Part shown: positions 48,504 to 56,580 of the stretch, in pieces
How positions within the stretch are numbered: the first letter of the stretch is position 1
How the letters are laid out: each line of letters begins with the position of its first letter
DNA from: Candidatus Aquidulcis sp.
GTDB taxonomy: Bacteria; Chloroflexota; Anaerolineae; UBA4142
Assembly (NCBI GenBank): GCA_020723345.1
Contig: DYJA01000019.1
Coordinates: 16,121 to 80,120 of the forward strand
DNA length: 64,000 nucleotides
Direction of reading: 5' to 3'
Notes under the pieces: generated by a model
Databases searched by the model: none
What the model was told of the DNA's origin: nothing
What the model saw: only the letters and a program-made list of their open reading frames with translations
Translations under genes and position numbers: made by a program

Positions 48504-50231
48504 GTTGTTATCTCTGTTAGAGCTTCACGTGCGTTGCAACTGTACTAACGACAGGGGGAGTAAGCCAGAATGGTCTGGTTTCAATCTCTGTTAGAGCTTC
48601 ACGTGCGTTGCAACGGGCGAAAGCATTCAACCAGTACTGGCCCACCGGCAAGTTTCAATCTCTGTTAGAGCTTCACGTGCGTTGCAACACGGCGACCCCG
48701 ATTCCGTCAGCAACGGTTAGTTTCAATCTCTGTTAGAGCTTCACGTGCGTTGCAACTTGGGAGATGTCAAATCATCGTCCTCAAAGCAAGTAAGTTTCAA
48801 TCTCTGTTAGAGCTTCACGTGCGTTGCAACTTGGGAGATGTCAAATCATCGTCCTCAAAGCAAGTAAGTTTCAATCTCTGTTAGAGCTTCACGTGCGTTG
48901 CAACTCGAAGATGAAATGTGTGTCGTTCCGTTACCCAAGTTTCAATCTCTGTTAGAGCTTCACGTGCGTTGCAACCTGGTTACCGGCACATGGGCAGCGT
49001 TGCCTACGGTGAGTTTCAATCTCTGTTAGAGCTTCACGTGCGTTGCAACGTTTTCTTGGTGTAATAACCATCAGGCTTAGTTTTGTTTCAATCTCTGTTA
49101 GAGCTTCACGTGCGTTGCAACCTTGACAAGCACGGCTACACCAACCCGCCTGCCGACGTGTTTCAATCTCTGTTAGAGCTTCACGTGCGTTGCAACTCGG
49201 CAAACTGTCGGGTGGCGCGTTTGAAAAGATTGAGTTTCAATCTCTGTTAGAGCTTCACGTGCGTTGCAACAGAGCCGCTGCCCTGTGTCGGCGGTGAGTT
49301 TAAGATCGAGTTTCAATCTCTGTTAGAGCTTCACGTGCGTTGCAACGCCGCCCGCGACGAATGTCACTATGGGTCGCAACCAAGTTTCAATCTCTGTTAG
49401 AGCTTCACGTGCGTTGCAACCAGAAAAAAACTTTAGGCCCTTTTAGGGCAAGCCAGCTCGTTTCAATCTCTGTTAGAGCTTCACGTGCGTTGCAACTTAC
49501 GGTGAACCAAAGCGGTAATCGCCGTGTCCGAGTTTCAATCTCTGTTAGAGCTTCACGTGCGTTGCAACTAGACTACCCAGCGAACCTGGCAGTGAACGAA
49601 GACGCGTTTCAATCTCTGTTAGAGCTTCACGTGCGTTGCAACTAAATCGAAAAAAAACTTCGCGTCAGAAAAAGGAGGTTTCAATCTCTGTTAGAGCTTC
49701 ACGTGCGTTGCAACAAACACAAACGCCAACTTCAACTCCATGGATCAATTTGTTTCAATCTCTGTTAGAGCTTCACGTGCGTTGCAACTTCCGGTTTTTA
49801 GGGAGCATCGGCATTATTTAGTCAAGTTTCAATCTCTGTTAGAGCTTCACGTGCGTTGCAACCTGGGACTCTGTTGACGACTACATCATGTACATGCGAC
49901 GTTTCAATCTCTGTTAGAGCTTCACGTGCGTTGCAACCGTTTGCTCTAAAGCTATGAAAGCTGGCGAGAAACAGGTTTCAATCTCTGTTAGAGCTTCACG
50001 TGCGTTGCAACACGAATTATTTGTATATTCCTTTATCGTCAAAGTCGAGTTTCAATCTCTGTTAGAGCTTCACGTGCGTTGCAACACGTCCCTGACCGCT
50101 AAGTGGGCTGCTGACCAGAGTTTCAATCTCTGTTAGAGCTTCACGTGCGTTGCAACAAACACCGTCGAGCAACAGAACATCATTGACAGGTTGAGTTTCA
50201 ATCTCTGTTAGAGCTTCACGTGCGTTGCAAC
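48504..50231 (-). CRISPR. CRISPR array, 24 repeats of 37 bp and 23 spacers
   Basis: On the plus strand repeats start GTTTCAATCTCTGTTAGAGC and end TTCACGTGCGTTGCAAC. Read on the minus strand they end in ATTGAAAC, the usual 8-nt crRNA 5' tag, so the array is transcribed on the minus strand. Spacers are 31-39 nt. The low-coordinate repeat (48504-48540) is altered at its 5' end (GTTGTTATCT in place of GTTTCAATCT), as expected of the leader-distal end; the high-coordinate repeat (50195-50231) is intact and next to the leader. Spacers 4 (48757-48793) and 5 (48831-48867) are identical. cas6 lies beyond the distal end; effector genes lie beyond the leader, on the same strand. Confidence 0.98.
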
Positions 50232-50439
50232 GGCATCATTAATCTATTTTCGCCTTGCCCCACTCCACACATCATTTTTCCCTCTTTTACCCAATTTTTG
50301 CCCCACTTTCGCTACTTCCGCATAGGTGAACGCGCGCCGCGCTCTCCCACCGCCAAAGCCGTCCGCAAACCTCCCGGACGTATGGTGAAAAACCTACCCG
50401 CTGACACATAGATTCGCAGAAAATTTAAGGACGCAGACC
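50232..50439 (-). promoter_or_regulatory. CRISPR leader
   Basis: On the minus strand the 65 bp next to the first repeat are A/G-rich (GGGTAAAAGAGGGAAAAATG, CGAAAATAGATTAATGATGC), unlike the surrounding coding DNA. Its position beside the undamaged repeat fits a leader holding the array promoter. No confident -10/-35 pair is assigned. Confidence 0.7.
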
Positions 50440-52357: not shown

Positions 52358-54652
52358 TCACCACCCGACGATTTTGTAGTAATCCAAGATTTGGCGTGCA
52401 GTCAACTGCCCGCTCCGAAACTCCCGCCACACGTCCTCAGGCAAGTGACGCGTCGCTCTATGCGCGCGCATTTCCTTTTCCTCTTTATGCCATGCTTCGA
52501 GCATCATCGCTTGCGGCAGCACCCGCGTGCCGGAAATCCTCTCTTGCTCGACCAGGTCGTGCAGAAAACGGCTCGAGGCAGTTCGCCCTGCGCCCAACTC
52601 GATCTTCTGCAGAGTCATCAACTGCCCTGCGCCAATCACCAAGCGCGCATTGCGCGTTGGCATTTGCAGATTGATCAGCGCGGCTGGCTTTTCGAGAAAC
52701 CGCCAGTGCTCGTTGTACGGATACTTGACGTTGGAGACGCTGATCGCCAATCGCACTGGCGCGGCGTCAGCGCATTTCGGAAAATACTTGGTCAGCAGTT
52801 CCTGAAATCGCTCGATGACGCGCCCTATTGCCGCGCCTTTTTCAACCCGCAGCACGTACAAATCTTTGAAAGGCGCGCCGTCCTCCAAACTCTCGACGTG
52901 CGACTTGGGAAACCATCCTCCGCCTTCATCCTGTTTCAACCAGGCGAAGAATTCATCCAGCAAAGCGCGATAGTCATTTGTGAAATCGGCGAGCAAAGCA
53001 AAGGTACGCAAGTTTTCTTTGACTTGCGCGCGCAACGCTTCATCGAGCGCGGCGAGCGGTCCCTGATCCACATACTGCTCAAACAAGTCGCGCACGATGC
53101 GTCCCAGCGTTTCATAGTCGGCGAGGAAAAAGCGCACCCATGCCACATCTACGCTTTGCTCCAGTTCGTCCCATTCACTCAAATTGGAAAAACTCTTCCC
53201 AGTTTTATCTCGCCCCATATTTCGCGCACTGAAACACTTGTCGCACACATCATCGCGCAAGTCCGTTTCTACGTCCGGCGGGGGCCAATGCGTCGTCGCC
53301 GGACGCATCTGGCACACTTCGCACAGCGGCGGCGCGATGACGGGCGCCAGATCTGAATGGAGCGAAGTTTCTATGCAATCTATAGTCAATGGCTTCTCGG
53401 GTAATTGCTTGAGCGCATTTCGCACGCGATCCAACTCGCTTTGGACCTTCTTTTGTTCCTCCTGCAATGCCACAAATGCCGGCTCTTTTCGCAACTGCAT
53501 TTCGATTGTTTTGTCGCCGCGCGCTGTCATTCCGATCCGTTTGTTCTCGCCTTTTAGCCGTTCGCGCAGTTGCCGATCTGTCTGCTCAAGGTCTGGCAAG
53601 AGCGCAAACGGTTCATTCAATTCGGCGCAATGCTGTTCGAGCAGTTTGCGCCCACGCGCTTCAAAGACCCCCGCGTCGAGCAACGCCAAAGCGGTCTCCG
53701 CGACTCGGCAATCAACGCCCAAGCCAGCCGCCAGGAATCTCTCAGCCAACGAACGCAGCGCAAGCGACTCTTCGGCGGGCAAAAAGAGCAAAGCCGTATC
53801 TGCCGTTCGCAACAACACGTTATCGCCACATTGCTGTTGTAACTCATCCATCAATTGCTGACGTTGGAGGAAGACATTCAGATCCACGGCGCGCACCAGC
53901 GTTTGCGGAAAATGGAACCGACATTCGATCACACGGTACCGCCATCTTAGTTCGGCTTGGGTAATCGTCTGGGCACTTTGATTTTGATAAATCGGCGCAA
54001 GCGCAGATAAATTTGTCCATGCGCCCCGCAGAGCGCGATAGAATTTGCCAACCAATTCAACGTGCGTGTGCAACGAGGTTACATTGCGCGGTGGTTTTTT
54101 GTCTTCCGGAGTCAGCGTTAGCCAATACGCATAATCACGCAAAAAACGCTCAGATGTTACATTGGGATCTTTAATCTGGTCGAGCAAAGTTGCAAGAGAC
54201 GGCTCGTCATCTGCCGCTGCCCACCCCCGCCGCTGCGGATTCTCCTTTTCGCGCATCGCGTAATAGCCCGGGTTCCACAGCCGATAAACTCCGTCGGTGT
54301 CAGCACGGACTTGCGCTGGGATGCGGTTAGTAATCGAGCGTGAGGTTGCCGCCGCCAGATGATCCGCTAGCAACAAGCAGAACAGATTTTGCTTACTTGC
54401 TGCGTCAGGCAACGGGTATCCTGTAATGTTCTGATTGTCTCCTATCTGATCGTGATGGTAACGAATACCCTGCCAGGTAGATGTGGCGGGTTCCGGATAT
54501 TTTGTTTTCCCCCAATCTATCCATTGGAAACAATGCCCTCCCTCTTCGCCTGACAAAGCGAACAGCGACTTGGAATCGGCGCCCATCGCTTTCAAGACTT
54601 TGTCTGTGTCAACTAGTTTGCCAATATCATGCATCTCTGGTATGAAATTCAT
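52358..54652 (-). CDS. cas10: Cas10-like large subunit with HD domain, GGDD motif absent
   Basis: 764 residues from MNFIPEMHDIGKLVDT; GGGAG lies upstream, and the longer frame to 54721 reads into the leader element. HD-domain residues: MHDIGK, GGHCFQW, IRYHHDQ and ADHLAAATSR, so the DNA-cleaving site looks complete. A zinc finger follows (CEVCQMRP ... CDKCFSAR), then the second Palm region begins VAWVRFFLADYETLGRIV. Where active Cas10 has GGDD the sequence reads DGAPFKDLYVLRVEKG, so cyclic-oligoadenylate synthesis is not expected. Loss of GGDD with an intact HD is reported for subtypes III-C and III-F. Confidence 0.85.
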   Translation of the reverse strand: MNFIPEMHDIGKLVDTDKVLKAMGADSKSLFALSGEEGGHCFQWIDWGKTKYPEPATSTWQGIRYHHDQIGDNQNITGYPLPDAASKQNLFCLLLADHLAAATSRSITNRIPAQVRADTDGVYRLWNPGYYAMREKENPQRRGWAAADDEPSLATLLDQIKDPNVTSERFLRDYAYWLTLTPEDKKPPRNVTSLHTHVELVGKFYRALRGAWTNLSALAPIYQNQSAQTITQAELRWRYRVIECRFHFPQTLVRAVDLNVFLQRQQLMDELQQQCGDNVLLRTADTALLFLPAEESLALRSLAERFLAAGLGVDCRVAETALALLDAGVFEARGRKLLEQHCAELNEPFALLPDLEQTDRQLRERLKGENKRIGMTARGDKTIEMQLRKEPAFVALQEEQKKVQSELDRVRNALKQLPEKPLTIDCIETSLHSDLAPVIAPPLCEVCQMRPATTHWPPPDVETDLRDDVCDKCFSARNMGRDKTGKSFSNLSEWDELEQSVDVAWVRFFLADYETLGRIVRDLFEQYVDQGPLAALDEALRAQVKENLRTFALLADFTNDYRALLDEFFAWLKQDEGGGWFPKSHVESLEDGAPFKDLYVLRVEKGAAIGRVIERFQELLTKYFPKCADAAPVRLAISVSNVKYPYNEHWRFLEKPAALINLQMPTRNARLVIGAGQLMTLQKIELGAGRTASSRFLHDLVEQERISGTRVLPQAMMLEAWHKEEKEMRAHRATRHLPEDVWREFRSGQLTARQILDYYKIVGW

Positions 54653-54667
54653 AGTCGTCGCCACTCC

Positions 54668-54850
54668 CAGAAAACAGAGACGCGCCATCAACGCGCGCAA
54701 GCATCCAATCGCTTGCCGCATCGCGGCGCGTCGTCCGCATCCTGCTCGATTGCCCGGGTCAAGTTCGCGTGCCGATGTCGTCCGCTCAACACTCTCTCCC
54801 GTGTGCTATTCTTCTATCGCTATTCTATCACATCTCCCGTAACCCACCAA
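54668..54850 (-). promoter_or_regulatory. Promoter and leader element A of the cas10 operon
   Basis: On the minus strand TTGGTG (54850-54845), 17-nt spacer, TAGAAT (54827-54822). The transcript leader then reads CACACGGGAGAGAGTG, GCGGACGAC, CACGCGAACTTGACCCGGG, CAGGATGCGGA and GGATGCTTGCGCGCG, ending just before the cas10 ribosome site. Element B at 56179-56359 is a near copy, with changes clustered in presumptive loops and the promoter kept. This looks like a shared regulated promoter with a structured leader. Confidence 0.7.
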
Positions 54851-54878: not shown

Positions 54879-56072
54879 TCATTGGGATTGAGGTTTCTCG
54901 CGCAGATACCGATCCCACGACACGTACGTCTGCCGCGCGATGAAAAAAATCGTGAGTTGATCGTCGAGCCATTGGTGGATGCCGCGCGTGGCTTGAAAGA
55001 CCTGGCGCAAAACGAACGGCACCGGCACGGCAATCAGCGCAGTCCACAACAAATTGACGACCGTGACCCACTCGGAAACTTTTGCCTGTTTGGCATCCAA
55101 AAATTGCAGCACAATCGGCAGCGCGTACACCGTCAGGAAATAACCGACCGCCGCGAGGAGAATGAGCAAGAACACACTCACCGCCAGAATCGTACCGAAC
55201 AATCCCGCCCACCGTCCGATCCGAATCCATCTCATGTCCCATTTGCCCAGGAAAGTGGTCGCGTCGCGCCAACCGAACAACATGGCATCCCAGTTTTGCA
55301 TTTGCCGCGCGAGCGCGCGCTGGAGTTTGACTTCATCTTTTGGCTTGAGCGCGACCGGCTCGGGCGAACGCTTGCCAATCACGAGTTGTTCGCCCTGATA
55401 AAACAATTTCCCGCCGATGCTCCACTTTTTCAAGTGACGCTGAACCACCGGGACGGTATAGCGCGGCAAACCGGCTCGCAGGTTCTGGAGACGACTGCGC
55501 TCGGCTTCCAAACGCGATTCGGAAAGCAGGCGCCGCCAATCCTCCTGGCTCGCGCGCGCGGCTTTACCCTGCGAGCGCGGTTGCGGCGGGCGGAGATACC
55601 AAAACGTATCCGCGATGCTCATCCCCGCCGTAAACGCGCGCGCGCTTGCTGCGGATACGGCATCGAGCCGCGCCCAGACTTGCAAACTCCACGCGTTCAA
55701 CAGATCGCGCAGCGCGCGCGGTTCGTAGAAATGCGGCGACGCGCCCGACAACCAATCGCGCGTCTTGAGCGGCAAGGCGTAGATTTCCTTCGTCAACTCC
55801 GACGCCTTGTCGTCTGGCTCGAACCCCAATTCGCGATAGATTTGGACGACTCGCTGCGCGGCAAAGGCGAATGCCTCCGGCGCCTTTTCGACCGCGCCAT
55901 CCGAAACGACGAGACGCGGCGTATAGTCCGGCGGGCGCGCGACGGATTGCGACGGCGGACGCGTCCCCCGGCGCAAATGTCCCAGCGTTTCGGCAACCGA
56001 CCAGCCCAATAAAAATGCTGCGGTCACGCGCGTTTGCGCGGTCGAGTTTGAGGATTTTTGTTCTGCACTCAT
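54879..56072 (-). CDS. Unknown protein with two C-terminal membrane segments, upstream of cas10
   Basis: 397 residues from the ATG at 56072 (MSAEQKSSNSTAQTRV). The N-terminal ~290 residues are soluble, mostly helical, with FLLGWSVAETLGHLRRG, YRELGFEPDDKASELTKEIY and FYEPRALRDLLNAW. Two membrane segments follow (WAGLFGTILAVSVFLLILLA and WVTVVNLLWTALIAVPVPFV), then a short basic tail. I recognise no family. It lies directly upstream of the cas10 promoter on the same strand and shares a near-identical promoter/leader (element B), so it is a candidate membrane accessory of the type III system. Confidence 0.7.
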   Translation of the reverse strand: MSAEQKSSNSTAQTRVTAAFLLGWSVAETLGHLRRGTRPPSQSVARPPDYTPRLVVSDGAVEKAPEAFAFAAQRVVQIYRELGFEPDDKASELTKEIYALPLKTRDWLSGASPHFYEPRALRDLLNAWSLQVWARLDAVSAASARAFTAGMSIADTFWYLRPPQPRSQGKAARASQEDWRRLLSESRLEAERSRLQNLRAGLPRYTVPVVQRHLKKWSIGGKLFYQGEQLVIGKRSPEPVALKPKDEVKLQRALARQMQNWDAMLFGWRDATTFLGKWDMRWIRIGRWAGLFGTILAVSVFLLILLAAVGYFLTVYALPIVLQFLDAKQAKVSEWVTVVNLLWTALIAVPVPFVLRQVFQATRGIHQWLDDQLTIFFIARQTYVSWDRYLREKPQSQ

Positions 56073-56099
56073 TGACAAAACTCAAGAGCGTGTTATAAT
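56072..56099 (+). promoter_or_regulatory. Strong consensus promoter for a small RNA
   Basis: TTGACA at 56072-56077, a 16-nt spacer and TATAAT at 56094-56099. It overlaps the start codon of the minus-strand gene and points away from it. Confidence 0.8.
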
Positions 56100-56105
56100 A
56101 CGGTT

Positions 56106-56172
56106 GCTCGTTCGGTAGTGCTTGCACCTATGTCCGCTATGGATAAGGTCCATCGCTATCGGACGGGTTTTT
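56106..56172 (+). ncRNA. Predicted small RNA antisense to the leader of the upstream gene
   Basis: From about 7 nt after the -10 box to a Rho-independent terminator: GTCCG (56132-56136) pairs with CGGAC (56160-56164), ATGGA with TCCAT inside, then GGGTTTTT. About 67 nt; no ribosome site or convincing ORF. It is transcribed across the region that forms the 5' untranslated leader of the minus-strand gene (promoter at 56359, start codon at 56072), so it is fully antisense to that leader. Confidence 0.6.
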
Positions 56173-56178
56173 GTTTCG

Positions 56179-56359
56179 AGAAAACAACACGCGCTACACC
56201 CGCGCGCAAGCATCTTCCGCCTGCGCGTGGGTACGGCGCGTATTCCGCATCCTGTTCGATTACCCGGGTCAAGTTCGCGTGCCGAAGTCGTCCACTCAAC
56301 ACTCTCTCCCGCGTGCTATTCGTCTGCCGCTATTTTACCACAATTCCCGCAGTCATCAA
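56179..56359 (-). promoter_or_regulatory. Promoter and leader element B of the membrane gene
   Basis: On the minus strand TTGATG (56359-56354), 16-nt spacer, TAAAAT (56337-56332), then a leader nearly the same as element A: CACGCGGGAGAGAGTG, GTGGACGAC, CACGCGAACTTGACCCGGG, CAGGATGCGGA and GATGCTTGCGCGCGGG. The start codon is about 107 bp beyond the element. Confidence 0.7.
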
Positions 56360-56375
56360 AACGCGCGATTTTTCC

Positions 56376-56548
56376 GGGTGTAGTTCAGTTTGGGGGCGAA
56401 CAGCATCCTGAGCGGAACGAAGCGCAGCGGAGTGAAGTCGAAGGATGCGTCTTGGCACCGCAGGTGACGCTCCGCAAGCCTCCTTCGACTTCGTTGCACT
56501 CCGCTCAGGATGCTTGCTCCGCTTTTTGCCCCCAACTGAACTACACCC
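56376..56548. repeat. 173-bp inverted-repeat element (MITE-like)
   Basis: GGGTGTAGTTCAGTTTGGGG at the left end is mirrored by CCCCAACTGAACTACACCC at the right end. Nested inside are two inverted copies of the CTGAGCGGA...CGAAGGATGC repeat. No ORF of its own. It lies between the leader element and the oxidoreductase gene; no other gene is seen in 56360-56580. Confidence 0.85.
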
Positions 56549-56580
56549 ATTTTTCCCTCAGTTCCCTTATTTCCCTCTCC

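Follow-up and report, generated by a model that had tools for sequence, protein, structure and literature searches.

In Candidatus Aquidulcis sp., a perfect consensus promoter and a predicted 67-nt hairpin RNA lie opposite the upstream region of a gene encoding a 397-residue membrane protein, and the comparison with related genomes supports both as conserved features that accompany this gene. We consider it probable that they form a cis-antisense RNA gene that represses the membrane gene through pairing with its leader and through head-on transcription; production of the RNA, repression and its route are all points that we infer from comparative sequence analysis. Positions below refer to the window, that is, the whole 64-kb stretch of DNA that was analysed, and the three central features are as follows.

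54879-56072, minus strand: membrane-protein gene, 397 aa, with two hydrophobic segments near the C-terminus and an ATG that overlaps the -35 box of the opposing promoter.
56072-56099, plus strand: antisense RNA promoter, with TTGACA at 56072-56077, a 16-nt spacer ending in TGT and TATAAT at 56094-56099.
56106-56172, plus strand: predicted hairpin RNA of 67 nt, delineated by its fold, strand comparison, pair counts and covariance model R1.

A preceding sequence-only reading had proposed TTGACA-N16-TATAAT on the plus strand, and this description turned out to be exact. The promoter matches the consensus at 12 of 12 positions, carries an extended -10 (TG) and is the only 12/12 promoter with 15-19-nt spacing in the window; the chance expectation, calculated from base composition for 16-18-nt spacing on both strands of the 64 kb, is 0.0056. 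Since the perfect extended promoter occurs in 21 copies in the 6.34-Mb genome and its reversed control pattern in none, this promoter type is real and used in this organism. The overlap of the -35 box with the membrane-gene start codon, also part of the original proposal, holds as well and amounts to one base, the A of the ATG (56072) pairing with the first T of TTGACA on the opposite strand; the overlap is kept in all four genomes that have the gene, where an invariant CATTGACA links start codon and -35 box. The idea that one -10 might serve a bidirectional promoter was considered and rejected, the reverse -10 being simply TATAAT read backwards; among the best five reverse candidates per genome, the RNA region contained a single weak site (score 7.4, in G007).

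With the 5' end of the RNA placed about 7 nt past the -10, the outer stem comprises 15 pairs (56106-56120 with 56154-56168) that close an inner hairpin, and a T-run follows at 56168-56172; the fold energy in the window is -33.0 kcal/mol (75-nt stretch folded). The suggestion of a 67-nt transcript ending in a Rho-independent terminator is borne out in that the long hairpin and the T-run were found, the terminator being predicted from fold and T-run. A simple terminator scan of the window did not list this hairpin, because the scan permits loops of 3-8 nt only. Stable hairpin and T-run are present in the window, G006 and G009; in G007 the T-run is more weakly placed and is the least canonical of the four. 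When both strands were folded for the four genomes, the plus strand gave -33.0, -38.7, -30.4 and -32.6 kcal/mol versus -15.8, -27.7, -25.8 and -22.9 kcal/mol for the minus strand. A better plus-strand fold is expected because the stem holds G-U pairs, and since the plus strand folds better in four of four genomes, the plus-strand RNA is most likely what selection acted on. In the four-sequence alignment 94.7% of 95 cells are paired, compared with 28-40% when the partners are slid, and four hairpin pairs carry changes on both sides; the structure was derived from the same alignment in which the pairs were counted. Shuffled controls reached the observed covariation score in 17 of 500 cases, and in 133 of 500 for further pair types, so that with four sequences the covariation support is modest. 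We rejected the idea that the RNA codes for a peptide, as inspection by eye of three frames in four genomes revealed no common one; the frames carry stops or shift with indels. A search of 56072-56172 against Rfam returned no family at the gathering score and none at E up to 5.

Close relatives of the membrane gene occur in 4 of 14 genomes of the family, its own included (the window, G006, G007 and G009), with protein identities to the window copy of 57% (G006), 51% (G007) and 50% (G009), and two hydrophobic regions near the C-terminus are seen in all four proteins. The check proposed at the outset, that the promoter might be absent from related strains keeping the gene, was run and left the claim standing: all four genomes with the gene have the hairpin at the same place, and in each of them the two boxes are kept at their distance from one another, with the -35 box overlapping the start codon. 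Conservation is distributed unevenly along this block. The pairwise identity over the four sequences is 1.00 in the -35 block, 0.29 in the spacer, 1.00 in the extended -10 and 0.39 in the discriminator, followed by 0.95 in the 5' stem, 0.60 in the next 11 columns, 0.78 in the inner hairpin segment, 0.45 in the next 10 columns and 0.74 in the 3' stem, and past the RNA terminator the alignment loses most of its similarity. As the RNA is retained in those related groundwater bacteria that retain the gene, it is probably a real, built-in regulator of the latter. Covariance model R1 of the RNA matched the same four genomes and none other among 199 relatives, a result that is informative only for absence elsewhere because R1 was built from those four sequences. 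The exact promoter/RNA pattern was likewise confined to these four among 396 genomes of the class; in GTDB genomes it was found on the groundwater Chloroflexi MAG contigs JACQYF010000108.1 and JACRPR010000034.1, which, judging by length, are the G006 and G009 contigs, and viral contigs gave 0 matches.

The protein itself matched no family in Pfam, NCBIfam or PADLOC, its AlphaFold model, with a pLDDT of 63.9, has low confidence and gave no Foldseek match at E≤0.001, and a related-locus search of the contig collection with the protein found no relative. Distant relatives were found in two of 400 genomes of the phylum besides its own (G335 and G304, from two other families), and a search for the RNA in these two genomes gave no match. 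The genes for the distant relatives lie at L024 5686-6858 (+) and L025 4710-6110 (+), with no cas genes nearby as judged by eye. In literature searches on antisense RNAs with cas operons, with Chloroflexi and on CreTA, none of the titles and abstract openings retrieved describes this RNA; on the basis of these searches and of Rfam, it appears to be an undescribed family of a known kind.

How far the RNA is antisense to the message depends on where sense transcription starts. We scanned the sense strand over 350 nt upstream of the ATG and compared the best sites with 1000 dinucleotide shuffles. In G006 a promoter TTGTCA-17-TGATAGAAT was predicted at -135 (1/1000 shuffles as good), in G009 TTGTCA-17-TGTTAGAAT at -121 (0/1000), and in the window TTGATG-16-TGGTAAAAT at -265 (6/1000), the last with TTGATG at 56359-56354, TAAAAT at 56337-56332 and an extended TG on the minus strand. 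In G007 the same region contained no clear sense promoter, its best site being equalled by 387/1000 shuffles; a gene of the same direction ends about 146 nt upstream of the membrane-gene ATG, and transcription by read-through from this gene is possible. In G006 and G009 the sense transcript is predicted to begin a little beyond the antisense terminator, so that it would overlap the RNA along its full length, and most of the 5' leader would have the RNA opposite it. The original claim that the RNA lies wholly opposite the leader is thus supported in three of four genomes, where the predicted sense promoter is outside the RNA; G007 has no clear one. The RNA spans about -34 to -100 from the ATG and leaves start codon and ribosome site uncovered, so that any direct block of translation would have to act at a distance.

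The membrane gene had also been described as CRISPR-linked, and in the window it adjoins a cas10 gene.

52358-54652, minus strand: cas10 of III-A/III-F type (PADLOC Cas10a|Cas10f, 1.8e-91, on the ORF from an upstream ATG at 54721).

Further cas genes of the window are Cas5_IIIf, Cas11f and Cas7_IIIf, which like Cas10a|Cas10f were named by PADLOC, and Cas6 (Pfam), and a CRISPR array with at least 21 repeats is located at 48720-50250; the first two spacers listed for it look identical. By motif scan, the Cas10 proteins of the window and G007 have an HD near the N-terminus and lack a GGDD-type cyclase motif at the usual place; a loose cyclase-motif scan picked up SGEE at residue 34 of the window Cas10 and AGED at residue 604 of the G003 Cas10. 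In a published survey, the III-F loci of the dataset generally have the HD, and all lack cyclase motifs and effectors (PMC11229360). The membrane gene adjoins cas10 in two of the four genomes (window and G007), which bears out the described linkage there; G009 contradicts it, as the neighbours of its membrane gene, read by eye, include none that is cas-like, and G006 is cut by the contig end. No relatives of this Cas10 were found in the G009 and G006 assemblies. At the G006 contig end stands an open gene that resembles part of a fusion protein of G012 (51% over 122 residues). The corresponding 1065-aa gene of G012 (L015 5611-8808, +) stands in place of an ordinary cas10; its N-terminal part matches Argonaute-system models (PADLOC) and a later part weakly resembles Cas10. 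The CRISPR linkage of the membrane gene is real, not obligatory, and since the linkage to cas10 is found in only two of four genomes, the RNA goes with the membrane gene and not with CRISPR. We also rejected pairing or resemblance between the RNA and the CRISPR repeat, neither of which exceeded shuffles: the best local match was equalled by 48/200 and 172/200 shuffles on the two strands, and the duplex energy was weaker than the shuffled mean in eight of eight tests.

Comparison of the upstream regions revealed that the sense promoter of the window belongs to a duplicated element.

56178-56339, minus strand: leader copy 1 (promoter -10, leader and terminator-like hairpin), upstream of the membrane gene, with its -35 TTGATG at 56359-56354.
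54669-54829, minus strand: leader copy 2, in the usual place before cas10 and 88% identical to copy 1 over 116 nt.

Every copy contains an extended -10 promoter and closes, ahead of the gene, with a GC hairpin and a T-rich tract. This element is also found in front of cas10 in G003 and, in G012, in front of the gene for an HD-Cas10-like fusion; the leader model R2 found, at E≤0.001, 3 of 149 relatives, which are those it was built from, and G007, a genome outside the model, gave a weak match immediately upstream of its cas10 (19.3 bits, E 0.0033). Leaders of about 155 nt were thus noted before cas10-type genes in four genomes, namely the window, L015 5418-5573 (+), L016 6655-6810 (-) and, as the weak match, L013 7496-7645 (-). 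A search of the window copies against Rfam gave no match, and the leader may be an attenuator or a small RNA that belongs to type III-F CRISPR. The promoter that had been assigned to the membrane gene at 56359 is therefore present, but as part of the duplicated type III-F leader and not as the gene's usual upstream region; in the window the usual sense promoter appears to have been replaced by the cas10 leader. In G012, which is of the same genus and lacks both membrane gene and RNA, an alcohol dehydrogenase gene is followed by the leader and then a cas gene; between dehydrogenase and cas10 the window has two leaders, one on either side of the block formed by RNA and membrane gene (Pfam named the dehydrogenase of the window, and that of G012 was recognised by its near-identical translation). 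From this difference in gene order, the membrane cassette seems to have reached the III-F locus along with the leader duplication, the cas leader becoming its sense promoter. Between leader copy and dehydrogenase gene lies a long, imperfectly palindromic stretch (56376-56548) bounded by inverted repeats of 20 nt that are 95% complementary, which makes it resemble a small mobile element without coding sequence. Rfam matches to microRNA precursors at about 56373-56550 were rejected, being far under gathering scores and due to this long palindrome.

In the cis-antisense reading that we favour, a strong promoter sharing one base with the start codon would produce a short, very stable, self-terminating hairpin RNA, whose end would fall just inside the predicted sense 5' end in G006 and G009 and well inside it in the window. 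The whole RNA would be complementary to the mRNA leader, part or most of which it would cover, and pairing could keep the membrane protein low either because translation is blocked or because the leader is opened to a double-strand RNase; head-on polymerase traffic through the leader may lower the protein further. The protein would be made once sense transcription outruns the antisense RNA.

The same observations were weighed against other accounts of the locus. The RNA might act away from the locus or as a structural partner, for example bound by the membrane protein or paired with other mRNAs, with the divergent layout only keeping the pair together. That the RNA accompanies the gene and not its neighbours or CRISPR, that its structure is kept on the plus strand and that the inner hairpin segment, at 78% identity, could reflect a role in trans all fit this account, which we nevertheless consider rather unlikely given that the sense promoters predicted for G006, G009 and the window are all located beyond the RNA, as if overlap were built in, and that the RNA shows neither complementarity nor notable similarity to the CRISPR repeat. 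More doubtful still is the idea that transcription alone matters, the promoter at the start codon blocking or colliding with sense polymerases and the RNA being a by-product with a stop. The promoter boxes are indeed the best conserved part and one of them touches the ATG in all four genomes, but pure interference would not need a 5' stem of 95% and an inner hairpin of 78% identity.

The conserved bases also belong to the predicted sense leader, and they could in principle form an attenuator or mRNA structure on that strand, the plus-strand promoter being fortuitous. We judge this very improbable, since G-U pairs of the stem become A-C mismatches in the sense RNA, the sense folds are weaker in four of four genomes and the boxes are fully kept around a spacer of 29% identity. 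Mere chance is hardly credible: consensus matches are common in a short scan at the 9-of-12 level (2 found, 1.5 expected), yet a 12/12 match with an expectation of 0.0056 and conservation in four of four genomes are of a different order. A bolder extension of the cis-antisense reading, which we regard as a long shot as a whole, is that membrane effector and antisense RNA lock constitute a mobile two-part module, comparable to type I toxin-antitoxin pairs but with a large protein, and that type III-F CRISPR, a subtype without messenger signalling or known effectors, has recruited it; loss of the RNA, for example after a phage or the CRISPR complex disturbs host transcription, would free the protein to stop the infected cell.

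Several known systems share parts of this arrangement, and in the reading that we favour the RNA would act in the manner of IstR-1, SymR and RNA-OUT. RNA-OUT of IS10 is a single stable hairpin of about 70 nt, transcribed from a strong promoter that points towards the sense promoter, and regulates the transposase by overlapping its ribosome site. The RNA described here has the stable single hairpin and the strong opposing promoter, but no transposase. The CreTA RNA guards are likewise small RNAs beside a CRISPR-Cas locus; CreA carries CRISPR-repeat-like sequence, unlike the RNA here. According to PMC4147584, IstR-1 of the E. coli type I toxin-antitoxin system IstR-1/tisB is divergent from a membrane-protein gene, with complementarity to the 5' leader of that gene at a site well upstream of the start codon, as in our case, whereas the complementarity is 21 nt there and the whole RNA here, and TisB is a toxin of 29 aa, compared with a 397-aa protein for which no toxicity is known. 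In SymR/symE, described in the same source, the antisense RNA faces the 5' part of the gene for a larger protein (SymE, 113 aa), and promoter mutation raised the protein (PMC4147584); SymR covers start codon and ribosome site, whereas the RNA here has its 5' end about 34 nt upstream of the membrane-gene ATG and extends away from that codon, and SymE, unlike the membrane protein, is not particularly hydrophobic (PMC4147584). Type I toxins are described as small and hydrophobic, typically <60 aa (PMC11264685). By position and complementarity only, our RNA resembles an antisense antitoxin to a toxin mRNA; the protein, at 397 aa with two C-terminal hydrophobic segments, far exceeds small-toxin size and its toxicity is only conjectured, and for these reasons we do not file the pair as a type I toxin-antitoxin system.

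Antisense RNAs predicted from a single sequence are often noise. The RNA described here survived a comparative test that was fixed in advance and is therefore well placed to be a genuine RNA gene of uncultured Chloroflexi from groundwater. The survey cited above found no effectors for type III-F (PMC11229360); if the RNA controls a membrane effector beside a type III-F CRISPR locus, it would provide a first lead on how this subtype may be backed up by a cell-stopping step.
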